Origin: an uncultured Paenibacillaceae bacterium
GTDB lineage: Bacteria; Bacillota; Bacilli; Aneurinibacillales; Aneurinibacillaceae
NCBI GenBank assembly: GCA_946478845.1
Contig: CAMLDI010000015.1
Coordinates: forward strand, 5,587-69,586
Length of the DNA: 64,000 nt
Reading direction: 5' to 3'
Positions 9,096 through 26,155 of this stretch are shown here, one piece after another (position 1 is the first letter of the stretch; each line of letters opens with the position of its first letter). Under the pieces are notes generated by a model. That model was not told the origin of the DNA and searched no databases. It worked only from the letters and a program-made list of their open reading frames with translations. A program made the translations under genes and the position numbers.

Positions 9096-9109
9096 GGGGG
9101 AATGGTTAT

Positions 9110-12097
9110 ATGAAAATTAAGTTTGATAAACAACAATATCAGCTTGATGCCATTCAATCCATTACGGATATCTTTGAAGGCCAAACGGTTAAAGTATCAA
9201 ATTTTACCGTTAGTATGGGCGAAATTGTTGGACAAGAAATAACAGAGCTGGGGATAGGAAATAAGCTTGAGTTATCTGAAGCGGAAGTGCTTGAAAATGT
9301 TCAAAGTATTCAAATGAGAAATCACCTTAAGAAAAGTACGAACATTCAAGACTGGAACTTTACTGTAGAAATGGAAACAGGTACGGGGAAAACGTATTGC
9401 TATACGAGAACCATCTTTGAATTAAACAAAAGATACGGTTTTTCAAAATTTATTATTGTCGTTCCTAGTATTGCTATTCGTGAAGGAGTTTATAAATCAT
9501 TACAAATGACCGATGAACATTTTAACAATGAGTTTCCTGGGCAGCATTGTCATTACTTTAAATATGAATCTTCAAAGCTTGAACAGGTACGTGAATTTGC
9601 AACAAGTACAAGCATTGAAGTAATGATTATAAATATCGATGCCTTTAAGAAGAGCTTTGATGACCCAGAAAAAGAAACTAAGGCTAATTTAATACATCGT
9701 GAAAGGGATACAATGAATGGTAAAAAGCCCATTCAATTTATTCAAGAAACTAATCCCATAGTCATTATTGATGAACCGCAAAGTGTCGATAACACAGATA
9801 AAGCAAAGGAAGCCATTGCTTCGTTAAATCCACTTTGTAAACTGCGGTACTCTGCTACACATAGGGAAACATACAATTTGATGTACAAACTTGACCCCGT
9901 AGATGCTTATGAGCAGAAGCTTGTTAAGAAGATAGAAGTGTTATCTGTTAACTCTGATGATGATTTTAACGACCCTTATATTAAACTTTTAAGCGTATCT
10001 AATAAGAATGGATTTAAGGCTACTGTTGAGATTGATGAAAAAAAGAAAAATGGTACTGTAAGCAGGGTAAATAAAGAAATAAACCCAAACAGTAAGAATA
10101 ACTTGTATTTGTTATCTGGAGAGCGGGAACTTTACCGAGGTTATATTTTAGAAGGGATTGATTGTTATCCTGGAAATGAAATGATTGAATTTGAAAACGG
10201 TAAAGTCGTGAAACTTGGCGAAATTATTGGTGGTATTAATGATGATTTACTTAAACGTTATCAAATAAGAGAAGCAATTAGGACCCATTTGGATAAGGAA
10301 TTGAAGCTTATTCATAAAGGGATTAAGGTTTTATCACTTTTCTTTATTGATAAGGTGGAGAATTATCGTATTTATCCAAAAGGACAACCCTGGCAAAAAG
10401 GGAAATATGCCATTATGTTTGAAGAGGAATATACAAAGCTTATTAACTTGAAAAAATATCGATCTTTATTCGAGGAAGACCAGTACATTTCCAATCATAA
10501 TGTAGAAGAAGTTCATGATGGTTATTTTTCTATGGATAAAAACGGTCATTTTAAAAATAGTACCATTACGAAAGATGGAAATTTAAAATCTAATAAAGAT
10601 GATGAGACAACATTTAAATTAATCATGCAAGAAAAGGAAAAACTGCTTAGCTTTCAAACACCATTACGCTTTATTTTCTCCCATTCAGCTTTAAAAGAAG
10701 GTTGGGATAATCCGAACGTTTTTCAAATTTGTACTCTGGTTGAAACGAGAGATCCTTTAACTAAGCGTCAAAAAATTGGTAGAGGTTTGCGCTTGTCTGT
10801 AAATCAGGATGGTCAACGTCAATATGATGAAAACGTAAATGTTCTTACTGTAATTGCTAATGAATCCTATCAACAATTTGCAGAGTCTCTTCAAAAAGAA
10901 ATGGAAGAAGAAACTGGTGTGAAGTTTGGTTATCTGGAAGAACAATCTTTTTCAACCATTATACACACAGATGAAGCAACAGGAGAATCCAAAGAGGTTG
11001 GGTATGAATACTCCGCCAAAATTTACTCATTTTTAGTTAAAGAAAAATACATTGATAAAAAGGGTAAAGTCGAAAATAAGTTAAAAGAAGCAATTGCAGC
11101 AGAAACCTTTGATGTACCTGAAGAATTTAAAGAAATAAAAGATGATATTGAACAGGTAATAAAACAGTCCATTAAAAAGCTTCCCGTTTTCAATAAAAAA
11201 GATGAAGTGAATATTACGCTCAATAAGGAAGTGTTATTGGGTGAAGATTTTAAGCAATTATGGGAGCAAATTAAATACAAGACCACGTATTCTGTTAATG
11301 TGGACGCGAAACAACTGAAGAATCGTTGTATTGATGCTATTAAAAAACTAGAGCCATTTAAAGCAAGAAAAATTAAACGAGAGAATGCCATTTTAAAAGT
11401 AGAACAATCTGGTGTTTCAGGGGAAGGGCAGACAATGCGTGTTTTTGAAGCGTTAGAAGAGAAGCGGCGGTTACCAGATATTCTCCGTTACTTGCAGGAA
11501 CAAACTAATCTTAAAAGACGTACTCTTGTAGATATTTTAATTGGTTCCGCACGGCTGAAAGATTTTGAAAAGAATCCTCAGGCGTTTATGGAAGCTGTTA
11601 TGAAGATTATTAATAAAGAAAAGAAGAAGTTAATTATAGATGGCATTAAATATGAGCGGATTGGAGACCATGCTTTTTACCAACAGTCTTTGTTTGAGCA
11701 TCAGGAACTGGTTGGTTATATGAAAGCAAATGCAGTAGAAGTTTCAAAAGATAAATCCGTTTATAACTATATTCGATATGATTCCACTGTGGAACGTACA
11801 TTTGCTGAAAAGCTGAATAATGATGAAGATGTAAAATTGTTCATAAAGCTACCATCATTCTTTGTTATAGATACTCCACTTGGTAATTATAACCCTGACT
11901 GGGCAGTTTTAATTGATAAAGAAGGAGTAGAAACGTTATACTTCGTTGTTGAAACAAAAGGAAGTACTGATCAAGAGGATTTAAGATTAAAAGAGCATGG
12001 GAAAATCATATGTGGGCGGAAGCATTTCGAAGCGATACAAACCCATGTCGAATACAAGCTTGCGGATAGTTATGAACGATTTAAAGAACAAGTTTAA
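9110..12097 (+). CDS. res: Type III restriction endonuclease subunit (Res)
   Basis: A 995-residue superfamily 2 translocase-nuclease. Motif I is METGTGKTY (about residue 86-94), motif II is the type III-specific DEPQS (about 219), then RYSATH, GWDNPNVFQ (about 531) and QKIGRGLRL (about 554). The C-terminal PD-(D/E)XK nuclease has NPDWAVLI and FVVETKG (about 927-950), giving the Asp and Glu-x-Lys active site. Res uses ATP to move or signal along DNA and cuts when unmodified sites meet. It starts at ATG 9110 after AAGGGGG, 14 nt from the Mod stop, as last gene of the operon. All motifs look intact. Confidence 0.92.
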   Translation: MKIKFDKQQYQLDAIQSITDIFEGQTVKVSNFTVSMGEIVGQEITELGIGNKLELSEAEVLENVQSIQMRNHLKKSTNIQDWNFTVEMETGTGKTYCYTRTIFELNKRYGFSKFIIVVPSIAIREGVYKSLQMTDEHFNNEFPGQHCHYFKYESSKLEQVREFATSTSIEVMIINIDAFKKSFDDPEKETKANLIHRERDTMNGKKPIQFIQETNPIVIIDEPQSVDNTDKAKEAIASLNPLCKLRYSATHRETYNLMYKLDPVDAYEQKLVKKIEVLSVNSDDDFNDPYIKLLSVSNKNGFKATVEIDEKKKNGTVSRVNKEINPNSKNNLYLLSGERELYRGYILEGIDCYPGNEMIEFENGKVVKLGEIIGGINDDLLKRYQIREAIRTHLDKELKLIHKGIKVLSLFFIDKVENYRIYPKGQPWQKGKYAIMFEEEYTKLINLKKYRSLFEEDQYISNHNVEEVHDGYFSMDKNGHFKNSTITKDGNLKSNKDDETTFKLIMQEKEKLLSFQTPLRFIFSHSALKEGWDNPNVFQICTLVETRDPLTKRQKIGRGLRLSVNQDGQRQYDENVNVLTVIANESYQQFAESLQKEMEEETGVKFGYLEEQSFSTIIHTDEATGESKEVGYEYSAKIYSFLVKEKYIDKKGKVENKLKEAIAAETFDVPEEFKEIKDDIEQVIKQSIKKLPVFNKKDEVNITLNKEVLLGEDFKQLWEQIKYKTTYSVNVDAKQLKNRCIDAIKKLEPFKARKIKRENAILKVEQSGVSGEGQTMRVFEALEEKRRLPDILRYLQEQTNLKRRTLVDILIGSARLKDFEKNPQAFMEAVMKIINKEKKKLIIDGIKYERIGDHAFYQQSLFEHQELVGYMKANAVEVSKDKSVYNYIRYDSTVERTFAEKLNNDEDVKLFIKLPSFFVIDTPLGNYNPDWAVLIDKEGVETLYFVVETKGSTDQEDLRLKEHGKIICGRKHFEAIQTHVEYKLADSYERFKEQV

Positions 12098-12401
12098 TAT
12101 AATATAGTACAGATTGTAAAATAATGTTATATTTAATTAATTTTTGCTATAGAGTAGGTCACTAGTTGACTTACTCAATTTTTGTGCCTTCCAGTCTCCT
12201 TTTTTCCATTTATCTTTCAAACGAATTGCTCTAAAATTTGATGTAAGCGTCCAATAAGACAGTGTATAGAAACTTCCCAACAAACTGTGGTGGGACAATC
12301 TTCTAAACAAAAGTATTTTTTAAGAAGGTTATTATCGGATTCTTGTCCAATATAGTTTATAGTATATAGGAGTAATTATTGATATAAAAAAAGTAGTTGG
12401 G
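12098..12401. other. Intergenic spacer without a recognisable gene
   Basis: About 300 bases of AT-rich DNA between Res and the sce7726-like gene. No coding frame of note, no clear T-tailed hairpin and no convincing sigma-A promoter could be picked with confidence. The promoter for the next gene is probably in the last 70 bases. Confidence 0.5.
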
Positions 12402-12989
12402 ATGAATATAAAGATGGAAAAATTAAAGGATATCCATGTTCGAGAAGTACTTTTAAGGGAATTAAAAGAAGAATGCTCCTGTGAGGAAGATACACTTATT
12501 ATAAATGAAATGGCTGTGTGTCAGGGGACATCTCGAGTGGATATCGCAGTTATTAATGGATCAATTCATGGCTATGAAATCAAAAGTGAATGTGATACAC
12601 TAAATCGTTTACCATCACAAATGTATGATTATAACCGAGTTTTTGAAAGGGTAACGATTGTCACAGCTGATGATTTTTTAAACAAAGTTAAAGAAATAGT
12701 CCCAGGATGGTGGGGGATTATTTGTGTTAAAAATAAAGATGGAAAACCTATATTAAAAAAAATTAAAAAAGGTCGTAAAAACCCTTCACAAGATGCAATA
12801 GCTCTTGTTCAGTTGCTTTGGAGAGAAGAAGCTTTGACTATTTTAAAAAAGAAAGGCTTGCAAAAAGGGTATTTGAGCAAGCCAAAGGGAATTATTTATG
12901 AACGATTAGTGGAGTTAATTCCATTAAAGGAGTTAAAAGTAGAGGTAAACAGGTTGCTTAAAGAGCGTGAAGGCTGGAGATCTCATTAA
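12402..12989 (+). CDS. sce7726 family protein, predicted PD-(D/E)XK nuclease
   Basis: This 195-residue protein matches the sce7726 family by length and by its conserved core. The sequence shows a nuclease-like arrangement: Glu36, Asp47 in TSRVDIAV, Glu59-Ile-Lys61 in GYEIKSE, and Q73 and Y77 in QMYDY, which fits the Glu / Asp / Glu-x-Lys / QxxxY pattern of RecB/Cas4-type nucleases. Nuclease activity is inferred. ATG 12402 and ATG 12414 are both possible starts and neither has a strong ribosome site. The 3' end overlaps the tail of the opposite-strand beta-protein gene by about 32 bases. Members of the two families are commonly neighbours, so they probably act together, plausibly in phage defence. 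Confidence 0.8.
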   Translation: MNIKMEKLKDIHVREVLLRELKEECSCEEDTLIINEMAVCQGTSRVDIAVINGSIHGYEIKSECDTLNRLPSQMYDYNRVFERVTIVTADDFLNKVKEIVPGWWGIICVKNKDGKPILKKIKKGRKNPSQDAIALVQLLWREEALTILKKKGLQKGYLSKPKGIIYERLVELIPLKELKVEVNRLLKEREGWRSH

Positions 12990-14049
12990 TGGCTAGGGTA
13001 AGGTGGTGGTTCGTACCAACTTTTCGCCACACCTCAGCATTTCCGGTACTTTTAGTTTCATGTGCGCAATCATAGATATATTTATCGCCAAATGAGTAAT
13101 TCTCTCCACTGTATTGGGAATGCTTAATAATTCGTTGGGCTAATCCCTGTGTTTGTCCCCATCCATTGTATTTAGGACTTCTTACAGAGTAACCACGAAA
13201 GATGAGAAACTCATCAGCAACAGTGTATCTTATTGCAGCTGCCATTTGCATAAAACGAGGGTCTATCTCATCATAAACAGGATTAGATATTATATAGTCC
13301 CCAAATGATGGAATCCTACTTAAATTTGATTCCAAAATCTTTTTATAGATGAGCCATTCTGTTCTAGGAATACTTCCATCTGTTCCGGTGGCTATTTTAC
13401 TAAGGTCGCGAGGGAAAGATGTACCGATAAAAGTCAAGGTTCGCCAATCTGAAATATAGGGGAGTGTAGAAAAAGTGCCTAAAACTAATCGTGCAGTTCT
13501 TGTAACATAATCAGGATCGATATAATTATAGTCAACGATTATATCGATTTCTTTTGGTTGGATGCTAAAGAAATTTAGGAATTTCTCAATGCTTGTTTTC
13601 ATGTCATCAAAGTCAACATCAGATAACCTGAAGCAAATTCCATTATGGTATTTTGCTAAAATGCTTTTAACTGTCACGTGATAGTTTGTACCATAATTTG
13701 AGGAAATTACAGGTATTACGGGTATACCTTTTGCTTGTAATTCATCAACGATGAATTCTAATGGATGTCTCCCATCTTCCATTTGTTCTTCATCATCTAA
13801 ACAAATCTGGAGTGCATCAATAAATACCGGATTTGTACAATCCCAGCATTTTTCAACTTGAGTTCCAATATTCTCAAGATGCTTATCGACGGTCCTTTTA
13901 GGAACGTCGTTTTCAAAATCCCAAGGGATGGGTGGGATTTCGATTAAAGGAGTTAATGAATTTTTAAGTGAGGGATTTAGTAATTCTAGAGCAGATTGTT
14001 CTCCTCTTCTCCAACGAACAACAGGAACGTAACGATTGTGATCAAACAA
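12958..14049 (-). CDS. Beta family protein (sce7725/T4 beta-like)
   Basis: This 363-residue protein resembles the 'beta protein' family named after a phage T4 product and related to sce7725. The conserved start (NRYVPVVRWRRGEQ) and a TIM-barrel-like series of strands (LTPLIEIPP, PVFIDALQ, IPVIPVISS, ICFRLSDVD, IDIIVDYNYI) can be seen. No catalytic residues can be assigned with confidence. The first in-frame TTG at 14058 touches the GGGAGG ribosome site, so I prefer the TTG at 14049, about 9 nt downstream of it. It converges on, and overlaps, the sce7726-like nuclease gene. The pair is inferred to be a two-gene defence or stress unit of unknown mechanism; convergent overlap rather than an operon is notable. 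Confidence 0.75.
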   Translation of the reverse strand: MFDHNRYVPVVRWRRGEQSALELLNPSLKNSLTPLIEIPPIPWDFENDVPKRTVDKHLENIGTQVEKCWDCTNPVFIDALQICLDDEEQMEDGRHPLEFIVDELQAKGIPVIPVISSNYGTNYHVTVKSILAKYHNGICFRLSDVDFDDMKTSIEKFLNFFSIQPKEIDIIVDYNYIDPDYVTRTARLVLGTFSTLPYISDWRTLTFIGTSFPRDLSKIATGTDGSIPRTEWLIYKKILESNLSRIPSFGDYIISNPVYDEIDPRFMQMAAAIRYTVADEFLIFRGYSVRSPKYNGWGQTQGLAQRIIKHSQYSGENYSFGDKYIYDCAHETKSTGNAEVWRKVGTNHHLTLAINEISSLHAL

Positions 14050-14169
14050 TAAATACAACCTCCCTTTTTATAGGATATAAACTGGTTGTAATTCATGCTG
14101 TTACCATAATTATACGTTTTTTATTTTTTCTGGTTTCATCATTAGAAAAAGAATATATAATTATCTTTT

Positions 14170-14195
14170 ATGCACCCAACTAAGGTGCATTTTTT
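14170..14195 (+). terminator. Rho-independent terminator-like hairpin
   Basis: A perfect 7-bp stem (ATGCACC with GGTGCAT), a 7-nt loop and a T-run. No intact plus-strand gene ends just before it, so it may belong to lost DNA. Confidence 0.6.
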
Positions 14196-14205
14196 GTGCC
14201 TGGTA

Positions 14206-14345
14206 TAGTGGTTATTTATAGTCCCGAGTAGAGAAGACAGTAGTAGCCATTAGCCTACGCTAACAGGAAGACTGTTGGTAGAGGAATTATGTTGGGAACC
14301 TATACTGTAAGGTGTGGTTGAAACAACAGGAGTCAGCCCATTTAT
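14206..14345 (+). other. Possible TnpB 3'-end / omega-RNA relic
   Basis: The gap 14059-14452 has no gene. Its middle contains CTAACAGGAAGACTGTTGG, GTTGGGAACC and GGTTGAAACAACAGGAGTCA, which resemble, from memory, the conserved region over the end of IS605/IS1341-type tnpB genes that encodes the omega RNA. No tnpB reading frame remains upstream, so if the match is right this is a scar or a stand-alone guide-like RNA. The assignment rests on recall and needs a covariance-model search. Confidence 0.35.
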
Positions 14346-14452
14346 TAACGATTAGTGGGACAAACATTCCATAAACCGCCAAACAATATACTGCATCATT
14401 CTTTTATAATTAGGTTAGAAAACTTTCTAACTGTGAAAGGAATGGGTGGATT

Positions 14453-16906
14453 ATGGAACCTCTCTATTCTGTCCTCATCTATAAAGATACTCTGGATCAA
14501 GAGACGATCCAGCTCATTTATACTTACCTGCAAAAAGGCATTAAAGTCTACTTTTTAAGCGGGACAGGTAAAGAAGAAGTGGAACAGGCCATCGCTTCCC
14601 TTTATGGGGGGCGGAGGAATCCACTATTTGTTGCCCATCGGGAAATGCCACCCCGGGAGGACTTTGCTGGTGATCCCTTTTTCTTTTTTGATGGAGATAT
14701 TGATGATCCTTATTTTTATGACTGGATTGCCAACAATTCTACTTTTAATCTCCAACAATATGAAATCGAACATAGTAACCCTCAAGAACATTGCCTGGTG
14801 AAAGCCGGAGCGGGAACTGGGAAAACCCGTGTGATGATAGACCGTTTATTTTATTTGCGCAAAACTCAGGCCAATCTAAGCTTTGATCAGATGGCCATGG
14901 TCACCTTTACGAACGAGTCTGCCTTGACCATGCGCAAGCGCTTGACCCAGCGCCTGCAGGATTATTTCTTTTTTACCCGGGATGAAACCTATCTTTCCTG
15001 GTTTGAAGAAGTGGATAGGATGCAAATCTCTACTCTTCATTCCTTTGCCAAAACCCTATTGCAAGAAAAGGGGAGAGCCCTTGGCATCCCTGGTACCATG
15101 GAACTGCGGGGCTATCAATTGAAAAAGCAGCAATTGGTAGAGGAAGCCATCCACCACTTTGCCCTTGCTTTTCCTCAGGAGTTTCAAGAATTTCGCTGGA
15201 TTCCTCAGTATGAACTGGTGAATTCAATCATGGAGTTAATCACTTTAGTGGAACAGCGGGCTGTGGAAGATCCTGCTCTGTTGGATTTTGGCAGTGACCA
15301 AAAGAGCCTGTCCCATTTGTTTTCCTATGTCCTGGAAGAAGTGGACAAAGCATTAACCCGTTACAAACAGGATAACCAACAGTGGGAAATGGCCGATCTT
15401 ATTCGCCTATTGTCCCCATTGACCCGGACTGTGGAAGAAAAAGAAACCATCATGTATCCTTACCTTTTTGTAGATGAGTTTCAGGATACCGATGTGAATC
15501 AGGTTCGTTTTCTTGCCTGGCTCCACTGCAGGTATAGGACTCTGTTTTTTCTGGTAGGGGATTTAAAACAAAGCATTTACCGGTTCCGGGGGGCAGATTA
15601 TACCGCTTACCAACAAATGAAAGACGAGTTGGACAGGGCCGGGTTAAATCCCTGGAAGGAGTATGCACTGGTGAAGAATTACCGTACCTATAGTTCCATT
15701 ATGGAAGAACTTCATCCTCGCTTTGCTGCCTGGGGAAACCAGGTTGATGGTTTTCCCTATGAAGCCAATGACTGTTTGGAAGCCATGATAGGCGATGGAG
15801 AAGACAAGGGATTGGAACTCCTTCCATTACGGGAGGATGGGACTCTAACTTCGATTTTGCAACAGTTGAACGAAAAAATGAAAGAAGAGCCGGGGCTGGA
15901 GTGTGTACTTTTGGTGCGGACCAATGAACAGGTCAATGAAGTAGCAGAACGGGTGGAAGAACTGGGTTATTTATGCCAGGCTGAGAGGGAAGGGGACTTT
16001 TACCGCAGTTTGCCTGTCCGGGAGTTTGTTCTCTTGTTGCAAGTCCTCTTATTCCCGGAAGATCCGGTGAAAAGGTATCTTTTCCATCGTTCATCTTATG
16101 GGGAGAATACCTTATCCAATGGAGTGGTTCTGGAGTCTTTTACCCCTGATAAATTGTATGTTTTGGAGCTTTTAAAAGGGGAGACAAAGGAAAATGATTG
16201 GTTGCAGCGGGTGAGCAAGGAAGGGGAACGTGAGCCTGTTTTCACCCTTCTTCGTCGTATTATAAAGGAAGTTAACCCAGCGGACCGTTATGCTCTACGC
16301 CTGTATTCCCGCTTGCGCAAGCAAAATCCAGGCATGGATGTGAAGGAACTGCAACATCATGTACGGGTGAAACGCCAGGAATACCGCATGAATTTGGACT
16401 GGCTTCTTTTGCTGTTGCAAAAAAACTATCCTGATGCCCCGGTCCATCTTTATCAACTTCTTGGTTTTTTGGAAACACAGATGAATACCAATCGCGAGCT
16501 AAGTGCACTGGTTGTGCCTGTTCAAGAGCGAGGTCCTTCTTTTGTTTGTAAAACCGTCCATAAAGCCAAAGGCCAGGAATATGATGTTGTGATCTTGCCG
16601 GAAACCACACGCAAATTTGTCCATTCTTCTTTGATGCGTTTTGTTTTGCGCCGGCAAAGCAATGGCATCTGGCAGGTGGGATACCGACTCTTTTTGGGAA
16701 AGAATTCTTTTGAAAATCAACTGTATCGATTTTTAAAGCCTAATGAGGAACAAGAAACCATTGCCGAAGAGGTTCGTCTTTTCTATGTGGCGTTGACCCG
16801 AGCGAAAAAAGGCCTTTATGTTGCCCAGGATCCTATGCATCCCACCGTAGAAAAATTGAAAAAATGGGAAGACCTTATGGAAACGGGGGTGAATGTTTAT
16901 GTTTGA
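14453..16906 (+). CDS. UvrD/AddA-like superfamily 1 helicase
   Basis: An 817-residue 3'-5' type SF1A helicase without a C-terminal nuclease. Motifs: Walker A AGAGTGKTR (about residue 118-126), motif Ia MVTFTNESA, STLHSFAKTL, motif II FVDEFQDTD (about 342), motif III VGDLKQSIYRFRGAD, motif V TVHKAKGQEYDVV and motif VI VRLFYVALTRAKKGLYV near the end. The first 100 residues are a separate alpha/beta domain (LQKGIKVYFLSG) not found in UvrD or PcrA and not recognised by me. ATG 14453 follows GAAAGGA. The gene is first of three overlapping genes. Genes 1 and 2 resemble AddA/AddB in order, but this protein lacks AddA's nuclease. It is more GC-rich than the preceding 14 kb. Confidence 0.85.
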   Translation: MEPLYSVLIYKDTLDQETIQLIYTYLQKGIKVYFLSGTGKEEVEQAIASLYGGRRNPLFVAHREMPPREDFAGDPFFFFDGDIDDPYFYDWIANNSTFNLQQYEIEHSNPQEHCLVKAGAGTGKTRVMIDRLFYLRKTQANLSFDQMAMVTFTNESALTMRKRLTQRLQDYFFFTRDETYLSWFEEVDRMQISTLHSFAKTLLQEKGRALGIPGTMELRGYQLKKQQLVEEAIHHFALAFPQEFQEFRWIPQYELVNSIMELITLVEQRAVEDPALLDFGSDQKSLSHLFSYVLEEVDKALTRYKQDNQQWEMADLIRLLSPLTRTVEEKETIMYPYLFVDEFQDTDVNQVRFLAWLHCRYRTLFFLVGDLKQSIYRFRGADYTAYQQMKDELDRAGLNPWKEYALVKNYRTYSSIMEELHPRFAAWGNQVDGFPYEANDCLEAMIGDGEDKGLELLPLREDGTLTSILQQLNEKMKEEPGLECVLLVRTNEQVNEVAERVEELGYLCQAEREGDFYRSLPVREFVLLLQVLLFPEDPVKRYLFHRSSYGENTLSNGVVLESFTPDKLYVLELLKGETKENDWLQRVSKEGEREPVFTLLRRIIKEVNPADRYALRLYSRLRKQNPGMDVKELQHHVRVKRQEYRMNLDWLLLLLQKNYPDAPVHLYQLLGFLETQMNTNRELSALVVPVQERGPSFVCKTVHKAKGQEYDVVILPETTRKFVHSSLMRFVLRRQSNGIWQVGYRLFLGKNSFENQLYRFLKPNEEQETIAEEVRLFYVALTRAKKGLYVAQDPMHPTVEKLKKWEDLMETGVNVYV

Positions 16907-19445
16907 GATTCATACCTTTCAAAATCCCGTTGCCTTTTATCCCAATCTGGCCTTTGCCAGGGGGGAATTGCATCTGACCGGGACGACCAGTTTGCAATAT
17001 TATTTTTTGGATCAATCAGATGCAACAAAGAGTGGAGCTGTTTTTTACACCTATGATGGGTTGATGAAAAAGCTGCATCCCAAATGGAATGATCCTTTAA
17101 CCCGGCTTTATTTAAAAAGCAAAATTAAAGAGTTGGCCGGAGATGAATACAGAGATTCATTTCTCGATAGTTTTCGTTTTGCGGTGGAGCTAGAAATCAG
17201 TCATTTCCCTATTCATGAGGAGTCAACCTCTGTTCAGGTCGCCTTTCAACAGATGTTTGCGCAAATGATGCAGGATCCCTCTGTGCAAAAAATAATAGAA
17301 GAATGGCGGGAGCCTCTTACTGTAAAGATGAAACGGCTTTTTGGCTCATCCATTATTCGGGTGGTAGCCCATCAAATGACAACAATGGATGCCGTACGCA
17401 TGAGATTTTTTCACCTTTTGCGACAACATGGGATTCCCGTCCGCTTTTTAATTCCCCAGGATTCTCTTTATCCTGCAGCCACACAGGGCTGGAAAAGGTT
17501 GTATGAACAGGTAGGAGGGAAGGGACAGAAATGGATTCCTGAGGTTTCCCCTGAGCCCATTACCCGGGGGCTGCATTACCTGCAACTTTTGACGGGACAA
17601 GGTGTGGAAAAGGGAGAGGAAAAAACCTTTGCAACCTGTTCCTTTTCCAATCTAGTGTCTTTTCAATCTTATGTAAAAGAAAATCCTCCCAAAAAAGATC
17701 AGGTACACTATGTCGCCCCATCCTTTGATACGTTAAACCAATGGCTAAGGGGTTCTTTGCAGGAGGAGGGGTTGCAAGCTTTTGCCCATCCATCAGAAAA
17801 ATTCCTGTTTTACTTATATGAATGCAAGAAGGAAAAAGGGGAGATTCGCCTTACCTATGATACTTATTTAGCCTGTATCACTTCAGGATGGATGCAACCT
17901 CCGAAAGGGGCACCAGGGAAAAATGCCTTAACTATTCTTGAGGAATGCCGCCCTTATTTTTCAGGGGTAGAAACCTTAAGTGAAATTAGAAATAGATTGG
18001 AAAAGCTAGATGAACTCCGAGAGGCATCGAAAGTTTTTGATGATATGGCTACTCCCCTTGCAGGGAGGAACCGGATTAAGCGGTATCTGGCGAACCCTTT
18101 TCGTGGGTTTCCCTATGTTCATACTACCCGTTTTTCTATGACCCTTCGCCAATTGAAAGAGGTGACAGAATACTTCGAGAAAGCGGTGGCTTACCTTTTG
18201 CCTGAAGAAGGGGAAACCATGTTAGCCAGGGAACATTTGAAACGCCTCTCGGATTTACTGTTCAGGGTGCATAAACAACAGGGAAAGGAATCTTTTAGCC
18301 AACCTTTGCAAAATCCTAATTTGGTGGAACTCTGGTTACACCAGGTGGACCCTGAGCTTGCCAATAGCTGGCAGGTGGGACGGGAAGAAGCACAGGAGTT
18401 AGTAACTCAGATTTTGGGGAGTTTAATCGTGCAAAATGATGATCCATTTTTACGGTTTCAGGCCCCTGATCAATTGGAAGGTTTGATTTTGCGGGTTAAA
18501 GACACGTTGCATTTCACAGACCTTTCCTTGAAAAGCCTTCATCTTTATTCCAGCCAGGGGAAAAAGATGCCTGAACCTCTGACCCATACCTGGTTGAAAG
18601 AAGCAGCCAGGGAAAAAGAGCCAATCGAAAGGAATGTCCTGCTCCATTGCCTACGGGTGGATTACGAATTTCGTCATGTACAGGATTCCCTTTTCAAAAG
18701 TTTGTTGTATCACCTATTTTGTTTTTATGAAGGGAAGGTGGTGGCTAGCTGGATTGATGGGATTCATGAACATGATTCGCCTGTGTATATTTGGTCTGCT
18801 TTACTTGAAGGAGAAATAGAGAGGGAAAATATCCTTTTAGAAGATGATTTTTTATTTCCTGAAGATGTGGAAGAGCAAAGGGAAGAGAAGCCTTTAGTGT
18901 GGCCGGAAAAACTGAATCAGGAAATCCCTTTGTTATACTGGCTGGATTTTGATTTTTGTGCCCGAAAATTTTTCCTTACTACCTTCATTCAGTTGCAGCC
19001 TATGTACATGAAGGATTTTCATCAGCGTCTGGCTTTTTCCTCTATTGGGAAAACCCTGGCTACTACCGCTGACAAAGGGGAAGGGTTTTTCCAACATGTG
19101 AATCCTTTGTTCCCTCAATGGACGGATACCTTGAAGAAAAACCTGGTGCAAACCAGCTATCAAAAAAACATTCGCCGCATTCAGGTGTTTCAAAATATGA
19201 ACTATCCCTATGACCTGCGGGATTTACAGTTACTAAGAAGTGATTATAGGGTCGGTCTTAGAAGAAAGGTACACAATGCATACAAACGTGATAAAAATAT
19301 AGTTCCTAAAGATCGGATTGATCTTTTACGATCAAATATCTCTTTCAATGAAGTTCAAGGGGAAGGGCATAAAAATTGTTTGATGTGTCCTTATCTCAAT
19401 CTTTGTGACAGGGGGGTGTATCCTATTGAGAACAGCAACCGTTGA
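16899..19445 (+). CDS. AddB-like Fe-S protein lacking a visible nuclease motif
   Basis: A protein of about 848 residues overlapping the helicase stop by 8 nt; ATG 16899 is better spaced from GGGGGTG than ATG 16893. The layout recalls AddB: an N-terminal inactive helicase-like region and, near the C-terminus, a cysteine in DFDFCARKFF and a CLMCPYLNLC cluster, the four-Cys pattern that holds a 4Fe-4S cluster in AddB and Cas4-type nucleases. Between the cysteines, where those families carry GxxDRxD and an Asp/Glu-x-Lys active site, I find neither. So a structural Fe-S fold with lost nuclease activity is inferred. Base composition changes to more AT-rich near 19230, suggesting recombination at the 3' end. 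It is probably a partner of the helicases on both sides. Confidence 0.65.
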   Translation: MFEIHTFQNPVAFYPNLAFARGELHLTGTTSLQYYFLDQSDATKSGAVFYTYDGLMKKLHPKWNDPLTRLYLKSKIKELAGDEYRDSFLDSFRFAVELEISHFPIHEESTSVQVAFQQMFAQMMQDPSVQKIIEEWREPLTVKMKRLFGSSIIRVVAHQMTTMDAVRMRFFHLLRQHGIPVRFLIPQDSLYPAATQGWKRLYEQVGGKGQKWIPEVSPEPITRGLHYLQLLTGQGVEKGEEKTFATCSFSNLVSFQSYVKENPPKKDQVHYVAPSFDTLNQWLRGSLQEEGLQAFAHPSEKFLFYLYECKKEKGEIRLTYDTYLACITSGWMQPPKGAPGKNALTILEECRPYFSGVETLSEIRNRLEKLDELREASKVFDDMATPLAGRNRIKRYLANPFRGFPYVHTTRFSMTLRQLKEVTEYFEKAVAYLLPEEGETMLAREHLKRLSDLLFRVHKQQGKESFSQPLQNPNLVELWLHQVDPELANSWQVGREEAQELVTQILGSLIVQNDDPFLRFQAPDQLEGLILRVKDTLHFTDLSLKSLHLYSSQGKKMPEPLTHTWLKEAAREKEPIERNVLLHCLRVDYEFRHVQDSLFKSLLYHLFCFYEGKVVASWIDGIHEHDSPVYIWSALLEGEIERENILLEDDFLFPEDVEEQREEKPLVWPEKLNQEIPLLYWLDFDFCARKFFLTTFIQLQPMYMKDFHQRLAFSSIGKTLATTADKGEGFFQHVNPLFPQWTDTLKKNLVQTSYQKNIRRIQVFQNMNYPYDLRDLQLLRSDYRVGLRRKVHNAYKRDKNIVPKDRIDLLRSNISFNEVQGEGHKNCLMCPYLNLCDRGVYPIENSNR

Positions 19446-21054
19446 ATATTTTCATCGCATGGCCCGGGCCTGGCAAAACGTATATGATACGGAAGGGCTG
19501 CTACCAGGAATCACACCTTCTGTGGATCAGCAGATTGTGATTCAGCAGGATGAAGAACACATGTTGATTACCGGCTCTGCAGGAAGCGGTAAAAGCATTG
19601 TTCTTATTGCAAAATTACTGAAATTCATGGAGCTAGAGGAACCGGGGAAACGGATTCTTTATGTGACTTTTAATAATACTTTACGGGTGGATGCTAAAAA
19701 AAGGCTGGAACGTGCACCAAAATTTGCTGATTTAAGGAAACGACATACTTTGGATTTGAAAACTTTTCATTATATGGTTTGTGATCTTTTACATGAATTA
19801 GGGTATAAAGATGTTAAAAAATTCGATACTTCACTTGAAAATCTTAAGGATCATGAAAGTTCTATGCGGTCAAAAATGGTAAGTATAAAGGAAAAGTTTG
19901 ATCAATCCCCGGAATCTAAAAATTTAACTAAATTGTTTCGTACCCATGACCAGAAGTTCTTAATCGATGAGTTTTTCTGGATGAAAGCGAACGGATATGT
20001 TGATAAGGAAATCTATTTAACCCGGGAACGGACTGGCCGGGGAAGTTCTACTCCTTTAAATAAAAATCAGCGGGAAACCGTGTATGCTTTGTTTGAACAG
20101 TACAATGAATTTTTGCGGGAAGAAATGCATAATTATATGGACATTGAAGATTATGCCCTTCGCTTATTAGGGGTTATGAATCAACTTCCACCCCATCTTT
20201 ATTATGATGCTATTTTTGTAGATGAAGTGCAGGATCTGCAACCTATGCAAATCAAAGTGCTGGCCATGCTGGCGCAAAAAATGCTAGTTCTGACTGGAGA
20301 TCCAAAACAACGAATTTATAAGCGTTCCCCCCATTCATATATGGCGTTGGGAGTGAATATTCAGGGGCGTCGGAACAAGATACTTCGTGAAAACTTCCGA
20401 TCAACGAAACAGATTATGAACTTTGCGGGATGTTTGAAGTTTGAGGATATGGATAAAGAAAGGGATGAAAAAGACATCTATGTACGAGAAGGAAATCTGC
20501 CTAAAGTACTAAATTTCCCTGAGTTAAAAAAAGCAATAAACTACATTGAGAAAAAAGTAGATTCCCTCTTTCAGAAACATCAGGGAGAAAGCATGCGAGT
20601 GGCTGTCATCCATCGCCAAGAAGATCGGATTCAAAAAGGCTTGCCTATCCATGCAAAACAGGAATTGGCCCGGCGATTTTCAATGTTGTCAGTGGAACAA
20701 TACCACCATATGGATATCGATTCTGACAAACGGATGCTCTTTTTTACTGATGTATACAATGTAAAAGGCTTGGAATTTGATTATGTGTTTATCCTGGACT
20801 TTGATAAAAACCATTATCCTTTAAAAAGTAAAGTGGATGGGGTGACGAAAAATCCAAGTGCCAACAGTAAACGGCTCATTAAAGAAGATTTAAATAGTAT
20901 TGATCAGGAAGAAAAGCGGTTGTTGTATGTAGCTATAACTCGTGCCAAGAAGGAAGTTTATTTGCTGTGGTGCGGGAATGGGGAGGAGAATGCTTCACCT
21001 TATTTAGAAGAGTTTGATAAAAAGTTGTATGAAAAGAAGGACCCTATCCGGTAG
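19426..21054 (+). CDS. UvrD-like DNA/RNA helicase
   Basis: A compact SF1 helicase of about 542 residues. Motifs: Walker A ITGSAGSGKSIVL (about residue 47-59), YVTFNNTLR (Ia), KTFHYMV, Walker B FVDEVQDLQPMQ (about 265), LTGDPKQRIYKR (III), LRENFRSTKQI (IV), FTDVYNVKGLEFDYVFI (V) and RLLYVAITRAKKEVYLLW (VI). The start is TTG 19426 with GGGGGGTG at 19411-19418; the GTG at 19405 lies before the ribosome site. It overlaps the Fe-S gene by 20 nt, so translation is coupled. It is the third gene of the trio and carries the end-of-operon terminator. It has no nuclease domain. Having two helicases and an Fe-S protein in one operon suggests a multi-subunit DNA-processing machine. Confidence 0.85.
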   Translation: MRTATVEYFHRMARAWQNVYDTEGLLPGITPSVDQQIVIQQDEEHMLITGSAGSGKSIVLIAKLLKFMELEEPGKRILYVTFNNTLRVDAKKRLERAPKFADLRKRHTLDLKTFHYMVCDLLHELGYKDVKKFDTSLENLKDHESSMRSKMVSIKEKFDQSPESKNLTKLFRTHDQKFLIDEFFWMKANGYVDKEIYLTRERTGRGSSTPLNKNQRETVYALFEQYNEFLREEMHNYMDIEDYALRLLGVMNQLPPHLYYDAIFVDEVQDLQPMQIKVLAMLAQKMLVLTGDPKQRIYKRSPHSYMALGVNIQGRRNKILRENFRSTKQIMNFAGCLKFEDMDKERDEKDIYVREGNLPKVLNFPELKKAINYIEKKVDSLFQKHQGESMRVAVIHRQEDRIQKGLPIHAKQELARRFSMLSVEQYHHMDIDSDKRMLFFTDVYNVKGLEFDYVFILDFDKNHYPLKSKVDGVTKNPSANSKRLIKEDLNSIDQEEKRLLYVAITRAKKEVYLLWCGNGEENASPYLEEFDKKLYEKKDPIR

Positions 21055-21067
21055 GATGGGGTTTTTT
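21041..21067 (+). terminator. Terminator of the three-gene helicase operon
   Basis: A 9-bp stem (ACCCTATCC with GGATGGGGT, one T-G pair), a 4-nt loop and six T residues. It overlaps the stop codon of the third helicase gene, which marks a clean operon end. Confidence 0.8.
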
Positions 21068-21290
21068 GAGGTTTATTTATTATGGGAGAAATAAAAAGTA
21101 TCACCAATTGAATAGCTAGAGTTCTACTTAACAAGATAATGCACTGTCTTTTTGGCTATAATGATATTTAGGTATTTTTTTGGTAAGCTTAAAAAAAACC
21201 AAAAAGCGGAAGCCTTATTTATAACAAAAATCTATTAAATCGTATAATATAGAAACTAGCGATTAAATTTAAACAAAAGGTGATAAAAAG

Positions 21291-24200
21291 ATGGGTCAAA
21301 AAGCGGAGCAATTGTTTGAATACCTTTTATCAGTGAAAAACTTAGGCTATATACCAAACCGTAGTTTTACCCAATATGAAAAGAGCTTTTTTATAGATGA
21401 TCTCCCTACTATTGAGGGGTGTTATATTTACGGAAATTGTAATGATGACGAATCATGGTTAGAAATTCACAAGCAAACCATTGATCCTGTACCGGAACCA
21501 TCTTATTTAATTCGGGACTGGGTTAGATTTGGATATAAAAACCCCTTAAATCCTCCAGAAGTTGATAAAGAAAAAAAGTATACAGTTCAAAATCTAGATA
21601 ATAAAGAACAAGTACAGGAAAAAGTGGTACTTTTTGAAGAGGATGACCGAAGAGTTACTGCATTTAACGAATGGAATAAGGAATGGCAAGTATGGGCGGA
21701 AAGGGCAAAGAAACAGCAAAAAGTTCAAGATTTGTACGGATTCTTTTTTTCCCTTTATCAACGGTTAGAACGAGAAGGGGAAAATTTAGAACTTGCTTTT
21801 GGACATGGTTTATTATCTTGGGATCACAATAGGGAAAAAATTCATCATCCCATTCTTGTAACAAAAATGGAGTTAATATTTGATCCTAAAAAAGGGGTTT
21901 TTTCTTTAAAACCAGGTAGTAAGGGAACGTTTTTAGATATTAATATGTTAGCGGGTTTAGAGTTACCCAATCAAAAAATACTTTATAATATACGCAATCA
22001 AATTGACCAATGCGGTATGGATCCCTGGGATGAGAGTGTTACAACCCCTTTTTACAAAGAATATGCCCAAACTTTACATGAGAAAGGGACTTTTGAAAAA
22101 GGGCAACAATCTCTATTTAGAAATTATCCCACCATTACTGAAAATCCGATTATCTTTTTGCGCCAACGTTCAGGACAAATTTGGCGGGATGAATTACGAA
22201 ATTCCTTAGAATATATTCGGAATGGCGGTGAAGTTCCAAAACCAATACTTTCCATTACACAAATGGATCCTATAGAACAAACTTCAATCGAAAAGTTGAA
22301 TTGGAGTCCCGTGGGTGAGGACCTTCTCTTTCCATTACCAGCGAATGAGGACCAAAAAGAAATCGCAAGAAGACTATCCAACAACTTTGGTATAACTGTA
22401 CAGGGTCCTCCAGGTACAGGGAAAAGCCATACCATTGCAAATTTAATTTCCCATTTATTAGCACACGGAAAAAAGGTTCTAGTAACGAGTCAAACTGAAA
22501 AGGCACTACGGGTACTTACAGAAAAAATTCCAGAAGAAATACGTTCTCTTTGTGTACCTGTAATGGGGGGAGACACACGTTCCATGCAAGAGATTGAGGA
22601 TTCTATCCGTGCTATTTCGGAAAAAATGGATTCTCAAGATCTTCAAACTTTATCTAAGAATATTGTAGATATTCAGGAAGATCTAAGATTCACCCGTGTG
22701 AAAATGACAACCTATAAAGATCAATTAAAACAAATGGTAGAAAATGAACACCAAATTTGCCTATGGAAAGGTGAAAAATGGTCTAGTTTGGATGTAGCCA
22801 AATATTTAACGGAGCAAAAAGGACACAATTGGTTAACTGATTCCATATCGTTTAATACAGATTTTCCATTATCAGAAGAGGAATTTCTTGAACTCTGGTC
22901 TTTGCGTGATGAGTTAAATAAAAAAGATTGTGAATTGGCAGATCAGTTTCTTCCAGAACTTGAAACCTTGTATTCCCCGGATCAATTTAAAGATTGGATG
23001 GAAAAGGGAACTCAATTAAGAGCGAAAGCCCAAGAAACAAAAGGTTACATTGATAAATTTTCTATTCCAGTTGATCAAGGATTCTTAACGGAAGCCTTAA
23101 ATAGAACAAAGCCTTTATTAAACCAAAGAGAACTTTTTCAAACGCCTCACTTACAACCCGTTTTAAAAGATATGATTGCTGGAGGAGAAAGGTATAACAC
23201 TTGGGAAGAATTAGAGGGTTTTTTACGTGAGAACAACAATGAAATTAGTCAATTGCATCGTTCTTTGTCCGAACACGAAATTACATTGCCCGAGGTAGAA
23301 TGGATTAAACTCAAAAAAGATATTGAACAATTTGAACAAAAGTTATTAAAAGGAAAAATCGGCAAGTTTTATTTAATGACTACAGGCAAAAAAATTCGAT
23401 ATTTGGTGGAACATCCTATTCTTAATGGTCAAGAAATTGAGACTTTGTCTGATTTAAATATAATCAAAGATTATATAATCTACATTGAGAAGAAACGACG
23501 TTTGGTTAAAAAATGGAATACAATCATTCAATCTGTAGAAGGGCCTCTTCTAGATGCAGAGGAACCTCGCTTGATTGCTAAAGTGGATGACCATGCTAGT
23601 CAAATTAGACAATGTTTTCAACTTGCTGAAAAAATAAAAGAAGCAAGTAACTTATTTTCACAACAATTAAATTTACCATCTGGTTTTTCTTTTTATTCCT
23701 ATGAGTCCTATGAAGATTTATACAACCATTTACAATATGTGGATTGGCATATTAAACATAGGGAATGGGAAGAGGCATTTGAAAAGGAAAAAGAAAAATC
23801 TAGGGGAATGTGGGTACAGGAAGAATCCCATTCTGTTTGCTTCGATTTAGTAGAGGCACTAACTTTGAAAGATTCCAACCGATGGATCTTTTCCTTTGAT
23901 CAGGTTTGTAATTTAGTTGATTTACAGAAGAAACATAATCGGTTCAATGAATTATTAAATATATTAAAGTCTACTGCACCGAATTGGGCCCATTTTATTG
24001 GTGAATACATGGACCAGGAAATGGCTTTCCCCTTGGATTGGAGACAAGCCTGGGAATGGAGTCGCTTGAATACCTGGTTAAAGGAAAGATCCAGTGATCA
24101 AATGAACCTAATCGAATCAAAGATCAGGGATGAAGAGGCAAATGAGAAGAGATTAATTGGCCGTCTAGTGGCTGCGTCCACCTGGCAAAAACAAATTCAG

Positions 24201-25598
24201 CGGACAACAGAAAAACAAAAACGAGCTCTTCAAGCTTGGAAGCAGAAAATTAAACGGATTGGAAAAGGTACCGGGAAATATGCAGAAAAATTTCGCAGAG
24301 AGGCCCGGGAAGAAATGGAACAATGTCAGGGTGCCATACCGGTTTGGATTATGCCTGTCCATCGGGTTATTGAAAGTATTTCTTTGTACAATGAAAAATT
24401 CGATGTCGTGATCGTAGATGAAAGCAGTCAAAGTGACCTATTCTCTTTATCCGTTTTATTGCGTGCCCATCGTGCCGTAATTGTAGGGGATGATGAACAA
24501 ATTAGTCCTTCAGCTGTTGGTGTGGATCAAGAAAAAGTGCGGAACTTGATTCATCAATTTTTACAGGGAATCCCTCAAGCAAATAGTTTAGATATGCAAA
24601 CATCTTTATATGATGTTGCATCAAGGGTCTTCCCAGGAAAATTAATGTTAAAGGAACATTTCCGTTGTGTCCCAGAGATTATCCAATTCTCAAATGATTT
24701 GAGTTACGGCGGTCAAATCATTTCTTTACGTTTACCAACAGCTAAAGATCGAATTGAACCTTCTATAGTGACCAAAAATGTAATTGGTTATCGTAATGAG
24801 GGGACACGCATCGAAAATGAACTTGAAGCTGATTCCATTGTCAAAGATATTAAAATGTTGTTAGATGACCCTGCTTATGAAGGCAGAACAATGGGTGTTA
24901 TTACTTTATTAGGCAGTCATCAAGCTTCCCTTATTGAGAATAAAATAAGAGAAGAAATTGGCGAAGAACAAATGCTAGCACGAAAAATTGTGTGCGGTGA
25001 TGCTTACTCTTTCCAAGGGGACGAACGTGATATCATTTTCTTATCTATGGTGGTAGCTAATAACGTTCGATATATGGCGCAAAATAAAAAAGATGCACAA
25101 CAGCGCTATAATGTAGCAGTCAGTCGTGCCAAAAATCAATTAAGGCTTTACCATTCCGTAGATTTATCTGATTTAAATCCAAACGATTTACGTTTCCGAT
25201 TGCTTAATTACTGTCAAAATCCGTTACGAGTACTTGAAAAAGTGGAAGAGGCAGAGAAGAAGTGTGAGTCCAAATTTGAAGTGGATGTATTGCGTATGAT
25301 ATTGGCTAAAGGTTATCAAGTTCGTCCACAAGTGCAGGTAGGTCATAAACGGATTGACATGGTAGTGGAAGGCATAAAAAATCGATTAGCTATTGAATGT
25401 GATGGGGACAACTGGCACGGTATTGAAAAATGGGAAGAAGATATGGAAAGACAACGAGTTCTAGAACGGGCAGGCTGGACGTTCTGGCGTGTTAGAGGTA
25501 GTGCTTTCTATCGTGACCCCAATAAAGCGATGGAAAGCTTGTGGCAAACCCTAGAGGAAATGGGGATTGAAAAAGAGGCTGGAACAGTGTTGGTTTGA
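21291..25598 (+). CDS. Upf1-like SF1 helicase fused to Vsr/MTES_1575-type nuclease domain
   Basis: A 1435-residue protein starting at ATG 21291 after AAAGGTGAT. Walker A is QGPPGTGKSHT (about residue 370). A long, partly coiled-coil insertion (about 440-1020) is followed by Walker B VVIVDESSQSD (about 1040), GDDEQISPSA (about 1066), EHFRCVPEI, SFQGDERDIIFLS (about 1240) and VAVSRAKNQL, the SF1B order of Upf1/Dna2-like helicases. The last 90 residues carry RIDMVV, AIECDGDNWHG and RVLERAGWTFWRVRGS, the signature of the Vsr-like REase_MTES_1575 nuclease family, with Asp and Glu-Cys-Asp active-site candidates. It stands alone between terminators. The helicase-plus-nuclease layout recalls Mokosh, but the nuclease family differs (Mokosh uses PLD). 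A defence role is inferred from context. Confidence 0.85.
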   Translation: MGQKAEQLFEYLLSVKNLGYIPNRSFTQYEKSFFIDDLPTIEGCYIYGNCNDDESWLEIHKQTIDPVPEPSYLIRDWVRFGYKNPLNPPEVDKEKKYTVQNLDNKEQVQEKVVLFEEDDRRVTAFNEWNKEWQVWAERAKKQQKVQDLYGFFFSLYQRLEREGENLELAFGHGLLSWDHNREKIHHPILVTKMELIFDPKKGVFSLKPGSKGTFLDINMLAGLELPNQKILYNIRNQIDQCGMDPWDESVTTPFYKEYAQTLHEKGTFEKGQQSLFRNYPTITENPIIFLRQRSGQIWRDELRNSLEYIRNGGEVPKPILSITQMDPIEQTSIEKLNWSPVGEDLLFPLPANEDQKEIARRLSNNFGITVQGPPGTGKSHTIANLISHLLAHGKKVLVTSQTEKALRVLTEKIPEEIRSLCVPVMGGDTRSMQEIEDSIRAISEKMDSQDLQTLSKNIVDIQEDLRFTRVKMTTYKDQLKQMVENEHQICLWKGEKWSSLDVAKYLTEQKGHNWLTDSISFNTDFPLSEEEFLELWSLRDELNKKDCELADQFLPELETLYSPDQFKDWMEKGTQLRAKAQETKGYIDKFSIPVDQGFLTEALNRTKPLLNQRELFQTPHLQPVLKDMIAGGERYNTWEELEGFLRENNNEISQLHRSLSEHEITLPEVEWIKLKKDIEQFEQKLLKGKIGKFYLMTTGKKIRYLVEHPILNGQEIETLSDLNIIKDYIIYIEKKRRLVKKWNTIIQSVEGPLLDAEEPRLIAKVDDHASQIRQCFQLAEKIKEASNLFSQQLNLPSGFSFYSYESYEDLYNHLQYVDWHIKHREWEEAFEKEKEKSRGMWVQEESHSVCFDLVEALTLKDSNRWIFSFDQVCNLVDLQKKHNRFNELLNILKSTAPNWAHFIGEYMDQEMAFPLDWRQAWEWSRLNTWLKERSSDQMNLIESKIRDEEANEKRLIGRLVAASTWQKQIQRTTEKQKRALQAWKQKIKRIGKGTGKYAEKFRREAREEMEQCQGAIPVWIMPVHRVIESISLYNEKFDVVIVDESSQSDLFSLSVLLRAHRAVIVGDDEQISPSAVGVDQEKVRNLIHQFLQGIPQANSLDMQTSLYDVASRVFPGKLMLKEHFRCVPEIIQFSNDLSYGGQIISLRLPTAKDRIEPSIVTKNVIGYRNEGTRIENELEADSIVKDIKMLLDDPAYEGRTMGVITLLGSHQASLIENKIREEIGEEQMLARKIVCGDAYSFQGDERDIIFLSMVVANNVRYMAQNKKDAQQRYNVAVSRAKNQLRLYHSVDLSDLNPNDLRFRLLNYCQNPLRVLEKVEEAEKKCESKFEVDVLRMILAKGYQVRPQVQVGHKRIDMVVEGIKNRLAIECDGDNWHGIEKWEEDMERQRVLERAGWTFWRVRGSAFYRDPNKAMESLWQTLEEMGIEKEAGTVLV

Positions 25599-25814
25599 TG
25601 TTCATCTTTCTTCAGATTGGTTAGAGGCAAATAGGAAAGAGTTGTTAAATTCCTTTAAATAAGCATGACACTAATCATTCTTTTTTCACAATAAAACCGC
25701 ATTTTTTGTCTGATGATGCAGGAATTTGGCAGGAAATTTACGGATGAAAATGGAAATAATAGGAGGGTTTTTCAACATAAACAAAGTAGTCGTTTGAATG
25801 GGGGTTTTGTTGTA

Positions 25815-26132
25815 ATGGAGATTGATAAACGAGATGCAGAGATTATGGTTAGATTAGCAAGGGAGGGAAAACATATTTCAAGAATATGTGAAGATGATTT
25901 TCCTCAATATGATTACATAGATATTTACGTGACTATTTATGGATCCGGTGAAAGAAGTAGCTTAGGGATTAAAAGAATGATTACTAATCGTCTTCAATTG
26001 CTGGAGAAATCGCCAAAAAAACAGCAGAAGGAGATTATCGACGAAATCGATGATCTAGTTTGCCGGTTATATTATAGGTTTCAAGAAAATCAGAAAAAAT
26101 TAGATGAAATAAGAAGTGTTATTAATAGGTAG
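25815..26132 (+). CDS. Conserved hypothetical protein, possible HTH
   Basis: This 105-residue protein begins at ATG 25815, about 9 nt after GGGGGT; the open frame extends further upstream but without a better start. The N-terminal stretch (IMVRLAREGKHISRICED) looks like a helix-turn-helix, followed by a tyrosine-rich patch (QYDYIDIYVTIYGSGERS) and a basic helix, then a charged coiled coil. I do not recognise a named family. A DNA-binding regulator for neighbouring helicase or restriction genes is possible but unproven. It lies about 220 nt after the giant helicase and is followed by its own terminator. Confidence 0.6.
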   Translation: MEIDKRDAEIMVRLAREGKHISRICEDDFPQYDYIDIYVTIYGSGERSSLGIKRMITNRLQLLEKSPKKQQKEIIDEIDDLVCRLYYRFQENQKKLDEIRSVINR

Positions 26133-26155
26133 GTAAAAAAGAATAGAAAAACATG

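Follow-up and report, generated by a model that had tools for sequence, protein, structure and literature searches.

We have found, in a window of 64,000 nucleotides (the whole stretch of DNA analysed here, from an uncultured Paenibacillaceae bacterium), three overlapping genes, g1, g2 and g3, which appear from their sequences to encode an AddAB/RecBCD-like machine that is linked to restriction genes and nuclease-free as far as these sequences tell. The alignments show that g1 and g3 have complete helicase motifs, and that g2, the predicted scaffold, has neither nuclease motifs nor a Walker A and keeps four cysteines. The neighbouring restriction genes suggest that the trio works on DNA ends made by restriction. 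Our preferred reading, for and against which we see the chances as evenly balanced, is that g1-g2-g3 is an accessory DNA-end motor of restriction islands, AddAB/RecBCD-like and without a nuclease of its own, that most likely finishes off restriction-cut foreign DNA while the cutting is done by other nucleases.

The three open reading frames (ORFs) are open and have the same orientation across positions 14453-21054 (Table 1). The starts judged best are ATG 16899 for g2 and TTG 19426 for g3 (with AGGGGGGTG before it), a G-rich Shine-Dalgarno-like sequence lying ahead of both. With these starts the genes overlap by 8 and 20 nucleotides, as the initial annotation of this DNA had it, and the single shared terminator that it proposed corresponds to a terminator-like hairpin that ranks in the top two by length among 14 such sites of the region 12000-26300. 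The numbers of promoter-like and terminator-like sites in this region were not above those of shuffled sequence, and since the promoter-like sites were no commoner than in the shuffles we claim no promoter for the trio. An intact trio, with all three genes open and in the same order and strand, was found in 17 loci (the window, L002, L021, L022, L023, L025, L026, L028, L029, L030, L033, L043, L054, L055, L056, L070 and L071; L numbers denote loci and G numbers genomes), and this repetition rules out a chance arrangement of three genes.

We compared 24 g2 proteins, including the window's own and some close relatives, with eight AddB-type proteins from genomes carrying the trio, seven of them over the family cut-off and the eighth (G204) below it. 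Left out of the set were L024, L034, L045 and L058, which are cut or decayed, and L031 and L032, which are close copies of L007 (L032 being the same plasmid); L070 and L071 were checked separately. The cysteines C687, C827, C830 and C836 were kept in all 24 proteins, where they form the AddB-style pattern C-x(n)-CxxCx5C, and CxxCx5C was present in every AddB-type control except G204. The first two cysteines were separated by 113-152 residues in all the g2 proteins versus 320-322 in the seven true AddB, the sub-threshold G204 protein having a spacing of 294 and an altered triad. The motif GxxDRxD was found in 0/24 g2 proteins versus 8/8 controls, which also had DYK in seven cases and kept D944, D947, D961 and K963 (L059 numbering) in all eight. 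A [hydrophobic]2-[D/E]-x-K motif after residue 500 was present in only two of the 24, upstream of the first cysteine in both, and in none between the cysteines, where the best lysine column (residue 746) was kept in 19/24. The initial annotation had noted for the window's protein that neither GxxDRxD nor D/E-x-K stands between the cysteines; this extends to the whole set, and the AddB pattern of acids and lysine that would mark a conserved nuclease active site is absent. The g2 proteins of L070 and L071 also had CxxCx5C and no nuclease motif, the first cysteine lying outside this check. A Walker A was absent from the first 120 residues in 24/24.

Based on a low-confidence model, the cysteines and the gene order, g2 appears to be kin to AddB. 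It matched no family in PADLOC 2.0.0 (E 0.01) or NCBIfam (E 0.001), and in Pfam a single row was obtained, DnaI_N with an E of 0.039, below its cut-off. The C-terminal piece of the window's g2 matched nothing in Pfam even at E 5. The top structural match of the g2 model was AddB, but the model, predicted from a 6-sequence alignment, is of low confidence (mean predicted local distance difference test, pLDDT, 51.6) and fails to resolve the C-terminal third, and profile comparison gave a weak result.

The first helicase, g1, matched UvrD-helicase (7e-44) and UvrD_C (8e-21) in Pfam. Its AlphaFold2 model had a pLDDT of 85.4 and its first Foldseek match was AddA (4cei_A, E 1e-26), and the protein stops at the point that corresponds to AddA residue 939, where the AddA nuclease would begin, which bears out the description of g1 as AddA-like without the nuclease domain. 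Against the AddA model TIGR02785 it scored 148 bits, the cut-off being 708. The helicase motifs of g1 were intact in a 43-sequence alignment and in a comparison of 15 loci, with motifs II and III altered in L027 and slight alterations in L044; the Walker A lysine was kept in 15/15 g1 and 13/13 g3. The N-terminal domain of about 95 amino acids (aa), a part that the initial annotation had singled out, has a near-invariant D80-G81, and when its 95 residues were scanned no Pfam match above the cut-off appeared (the best was NAPRTase, E 0.02); the first 300 residues of g1 in L007, L031 and L033 had no Pfam match at E 5. For g3, Pfam gave UvrD-helicase (1e-25) and NCBIfam gave 10 matches, to UvrD/Rep/PcrA/RecB/AddA/helicase IV or STM2767 models, with no RecD model among them. 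No nuclease domain was among the Pfam matches of g1 or g3 at E 0.1. The claim of a helicase-only machine on an iron-sulfur scaffold is supported by these sequences.

The g1, g2 and g3 genes seem to travel together. In 398 genomes of one class, a search with g1 alone (E 1e-60) picked up 14 loci from 13 genomes; two of these loci, L031 and L032, are closely related Exiguobacterium islands. In all 14 the g2 gene adjoined g1 (as a partial gene at the contig end in L024 and L034), and g3 came next in nine of the 12 that were not cut by a contig end. A g2 profile found the gene in 3/398 genomes of a phylum draw, 7/41 of one family, 2/10 of another family and 3/291 of the class of G744, some genomes being shared between these searches; as L070 and L071 come from a second class draw with other genomes, the trio loci would span more than one class. 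The identity to the window's g2 went down to 17-20% across the trio loci. Over 12 loci, the pairwise identities of the three proteins were correlated (r 0.96 for g1-g2 and 0.81 for both g1-g3 and g2-g3, each at the permutation floor of 0.0002), as one would expect if the genes are passed on together. The closest relative found was in a Paenibacillaceae metagenome assembly, with a g1 90% identical. A protein-database search with g2 returned three relatives besides the window's own and a profile search at least two further ones, each among fewer than 8,000 candidates scored. None of 50,697 phage records matched g2 at E 1e-5. Decayed copies are present in L045 and L058.

Some variants of the arrangement were observed. 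In a Geobacillus zalihae plasmid the trio has a 74-aa gene between g2 and g3, and small ORFs of 74-97 aa follow g2 in the Geobacillus-type branch (L002:18260-18484, L056:12788-13012, L057:829-1122); the L002 copy had no NCBIfam match. Two different g3-type helicase genes stand in tandem behind g2 in L028:2748-5903. In the Exiguobacterium plasmid p1-UTDF19-27C (L007/L046, 50-76 kb) the g1-g2 pair lies in a large island with dcm, vsr, a HerA-like ATPase, an HNH endonuclease and several large unassigned proteins, three of which match no PADLOC family at 1e-12.

A replacement of missing host AddAB by the trio was rejected as a rule. A canonical addB over the cut-off was present in 7/13 carrier genomes, where the trio is therefore an addition. 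In the other six (G249 and G284 without an AddB match; G204, G114, G134 and G320 with sub-threshold matches only) a replacement is possible.

The link with restriction is found in most of the loci. A formal count was made for two gene families only, HsdR_N and C5-methylase, over 16 loci and taking the related islands G126/G336/G066, G249/G284, G115/G264 and G114/G134 as separate. These genes were found within 5 kb in 7/16 loci (0.19 expected), within 10 kb in 8/16 (0.30) and within 15 kb in 11/16 (0.42), with a tail P of 6e-15 that is too small because the loci are partly related. By eye, the same genomes' true addB loci gave 0/6 within 15 kb (a seventh, on a 4.3-kb contig, was unassessable), so that the contrast between both kinds of loci is large. 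Considering all restriction or modification genes, 13 of the 17 intact trios have one within 10 kb; the exceptions are L030 (with a C5-methylase at 12-13 kb), L071 (with an Hhe-like gene only), L021 and L043. The kinds of genes involved are diverse. In L025 and L054 an hsdM-hsdS-hsdR cluster is followed by g1 after 42 bp and 320 bp, respectively; hsdR lies 39 bp ahead of g1 in L026 (hsdM and hsdS falling outside the scan) and about 340 bp ahead in L022. A C5-methylase adjoins the trio in L029, L033 and L056, and the g1-g2 pair in L044. AspBHI- and BpuJI-type endonuclease domains are near the trio in L028, GmrSD comes after it in L023 and, by similarity, in L055, L070 has a type IV enzyme together with the remnant of an hsdR gene, and L071 has a 1952-aa PDC-S37/Hhe protein. 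No DISARM, BREX or Wadjet gene was constant among the trio neighbours scanned, in a scan not aimed systematically at these systems.

RecBCD combines an active SF1 motor (RecB; SF1, superfamily 1), a scaffold dead as helicase and as nuclease and not known to have iron-sulfur-type cysteines (RecC) and one further helicase. The trio appears to have the same three kinds of components, but no recognisable nuclease in any of them; its third gene is UvrD-like and not of the RecD type (SF1B), and its scaffold keeps such cysteines. It resembles AddAB of the Bacillus subtilis type in that an AddA-like motor is followed by an AddB-like subunit whose four cysteines stand in the order of an iron staple; the top structural matches were AddA and AddB. 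It differs from AddAB in the lack of a recognisable nuclease domain in either subunit, in the third helicase gene and in a g2 that is missed by the AddB model; moreover the trio is patchy, linked to restriction and found beside a true AddB in 7/13 genomes. The N-terminal inactivated helicase domains of AddB and RecC are thought to recognise Chi (PMC4824097).

Iron-staple domains are described as commonly tied to SF1 helicases; Bad (bacterial Dna2-like) adjoins a gene resembling type III Mod, and it has been proposed that Bad might be one subunit of a novel class of restriction enzyme (PMC7430649). Fusions of the UvrD-Cas4-like kind are found in the company of type III Mod/Res or Dcm-Vsr genes (PMC5704561). 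Both resemble the trio in tying an SF1 helicase to an iron-staple domain in type III restriction-modification or Dcm-Vsr surroundings; they differ in having nuclease motifs, fused to the helicase, whereas in the trio the motifs are lost and the cysteines stand on a separate AddB-like scaffold. In Gabija (GajAB) and Hachiman, too, a helicase serves defence as a sensor or as a partner, but their composition is different. Gabija was rejected, as a PADLOC scan of 18 window proteins, taking in both sides of the trio, showed no GajA. The candidates Hhe/PDC-S37 of PADLOC contain the family of g4, the gene downstream of the trio in the window (an SF1 helicase with an MTES nuclease), which accompanies the trio in the window, in L023 and L055 and, in a distant form, in L071. 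Their models, however, did not come up in the matches listed for g1 and g3, g2 matched none, and no gene of this type was noticed among the examined neighbours at most trio loci. The initial annotation knew of no named defence system with this composition; PADLOC 2.0.0 (2023) has none, with g2 matching no model at E 0.01, and we found no description of the trio in the literature searched (titles and openings of abstracts of the papers listed, with subscription papers mostly outside).

These data can be put together as follows. Restriction would make DNA ends on which the trio loads. There g2 would act as an AddB/RecC-like body that grips the duplex end through an iron-sulfur staple, g1 would unwind the DNA from the gripped end without cutting it, and g3 would be a second motor in the place that RecD takes within RecBCD. 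Cutting of the exposed strands would then fall to nucleases encoded nearby, such as restriction subunits or the MTES nuclease of g4, or to those of the host. As to purpose, the likeliest is that the trio completes the destruction of restriction-cut foreign DNA in cells whose own AddAB is blocked or does not suffice. A wider version, which we doubt more than we believe, is that of a nuclease-free counterpart of RecBCD, with two motors on a scaffold that is dead as helicase and as nuclease and retains the iron-sulfur staple alone, recruited by many restriction types as an end-unwinding module, and with a nuclease exchangeable in trans (HsdR, Res, type II, type IV, g4) and perhaps re-acquired by fusion in single lineages. 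As its sequence differs from that of the host AddAB, such a machine may stay active under phage inhibitors of AddAB, and restriction would then remain effective. If the trio does serve restriction, the processing of ends after restriction, usually credited to host RecBCD/AddAB, can have a dedicated machinery that travels with the restriction systems, and the AddAB scaffold can persist for end binding and unwinding after the loss of both nucleases. The trio would be a testable handle on the fate of DNA after restriction and on the role of the iron-sulfur staple alone.

Several observations weigh against an accessory DNA-end motor of this kind. The iron-sulfur cluster of g2 and the g1-g2-g3 complex are both deduced. 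The g2 model is poor, with residues 572-848 below a pLDDT of 50, the likeness of its profile to that of AddB is slight (hhalign probability 13%; E 0.002 with one target), and no NCBIfam model matches g2, that of AddB included. Between the cysteines, the most conserved acidic column, at residue 706, holds in 20/24 proteins and leaves room for a remote site. In L030, with a long g1 relative, the N-terminal piece (L030:8255-9184) scanned alone matched NERD (E 3e-9), a hint of a re-acquired nuclease fusion from one of three scans; we take it as a hint only because NERD was absent from the whole-protein scan (E 0.01) and a genome-wide search found one NERD gene, elsewhere; the piece had no PDB match. 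In L027, L044 and the Exiguobacterium L007/L031/L032 the g1-g2 pair has no adjacent g3 (in L027 a diverged UvrD gene lies 1.9 kb further on), so that g3 is not obligatory. No restriction gene was recognised in L021 and L043, where the Pfam scan covered only 2-4 neighbours and a similarity comparison with 15 reference proteins the others. The restriction link, finally, could be mere island membership, and its P suffers from the relatedness mentioned above.

The same anatomy fits the rescue of self-cut host DNA as well, and the data do not favour either. The trio would in that case process or protect the chromosome breaks that the neighbouring restriction enzymes make on under-methylated host DNA, providing single strands for RecA without the DNA loss of AddAB-type enzymes. 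Unwinding without cutting suits rescue better than destruction, and a trio positioned behind hsdMSR would be well placed for it. Directly after g3 there is a PC4-family gene in L022, L023, L054, L055 (by similarity only) and the decayed L058, and the PC4 family has a single-stranded DNA-binding fold; a PC4-like gene was not found in the window by similarity to the L023 protein. We know of no protective host methylation for type IV restriction and Hhe-like genes, beside which the trio is also found, and two of the 17 loci have no recognised restriction gene, so that self-repair seems to us unlikely as the main role. In its favour, a review states that where EcoK has cut the cell's own chromosome, RecBCD degrades it if there is no rescue by recombination (PMC12707154).

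A stand-alone defence, in which the helicases engage unprotected or aberrant DNA ends and trigger an effector, like Gabija or Hachiman, with the restriction genes as mere neighbours, we consider still less likely. GajB was the first PADLOC match of g1 (E 3e-34) and the second of g3 after RTasHel (E 3e-31), and some loci lack a recognised restriction gene, but the likeness to GajB is that of UvrD helicases in general, GajA was missing from the proteins scanned and no effector gene was constant among the trio neighbours examined. Helicase-based sensing in defence is described in two sources (PMC12278908; preprint PMC12407980). An ordinary accessory DNA repair complex on mobile islands, unrelated to defence, is improbable. 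The PC4-like gene, the DNA polymerase IV and YolD genes beside the Geobacillus trio and the location of L043 between metabolic genes (its neighbours are a phosphoenolpyruvate carboxykinase and a phosphatidylserine decarboxylase) would suit it, and for a UvrD/Cas4-like gene pair in the literature a role outside defence was concluded from its context (PMC5704561). Against it stand the strong link to HsdR and C5-methylase genes versus none at the six assessable true addB loci, the patchy presence (g1 in 13/398 and g2 in 7/41 genomes) and the decayed copies. It is very improbable that g2 ends in an active nuclease of a diverged type whose site escaped recognition, since, despite the acidic column, an Exiguobacterium relative annotated as a PD-(D/E)XK family protein and a weak match of the L030 g2 to the end of PDDEXK_1 (E 6e-4, 20.2 bits with a cut-off of 22), the AddB acids and lysine are absent, the L030 match covers the cysteine tail only (residues 819-861) and Pfam is silent on the window's C-terminal piece.

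The preferred reading, an end motor accompanying restriction, also has to be seen in the surroundings of the window's own trio (Table 1). A complete type III mod-res system lies 2.4 kb upstream of g1. The g4 gene starts 236 bp downstream of the trio, after the hairpin, so it is probably a separate transcription unit, and it is a candidate partner; relatives of it that score about 1190 bits adjoin the trio in L023 and L055, with a distant one in L071 (110 bits, also PDC-S37).

Table 1. Coordinates of the trio and of the main neighbouring features in the window.
Feature	Position	Strand	Length	Description
g1	14453-16906	+	817 aa	AddA/RecB-type SF1 helicase
g2	16899-19445 (alternative start 16893)	+	848 aa (850 aa from the alternative start)	AddB/RecC-like predicted scaffold; N-part tentatively helicase-like, no Walker A
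g2 C687-C836 segment	18957-19406 (from residue numbers)	+		Iron-sulfur-type cysteine frame, short spacer, no AddB-like catalytic pattern
g3	19426-21054 from TTG (ORF opens at GTG 19405)	+	about 542 aa (ORF 549 aa)	Short UvrD-like SF1 helicase
Terminator-like hairpin	21036-21067	+		14 pairs, 5 G-C, T-run; closes the trio
Type III mod	7227-9095	+		PADLOC MTase_III 2e-229
Type III res	9110-12097	+		PADLOC REase_III 4e-304
g4	21291-25598	+		SF1 helicase with C-terminal MTES_1575/Vsr-like nuclease, PDC-S37/Hhe-like; Pfam MTES_1575 4e-33, PADLOC PDC-S37 7e-55

Further genes of the window were noted. The type III genes look like the end of one operon (3188-12097) that begins with an HKD and Snf2 helicase gene (PADLOC C3a139) and a DUF4391 gene. 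Between this and the trio, 12402-14058 holds two convergent genes whose ends overlap, one for a 'cll' protein and the other for a Beta_protein of the PD-Lambda-2_C family. On the other side, at 28190-31518, a gene for a 675-aa protein with matches to PD-T4-1 and a type II restriction enzyme is directly followed by one of 433 aa without a PADLOC match at 1e-10. At the window edge (15-3002), a 995-aa ORF matches about the C-terminal two thirds of the JetC3 models of Wadjet.

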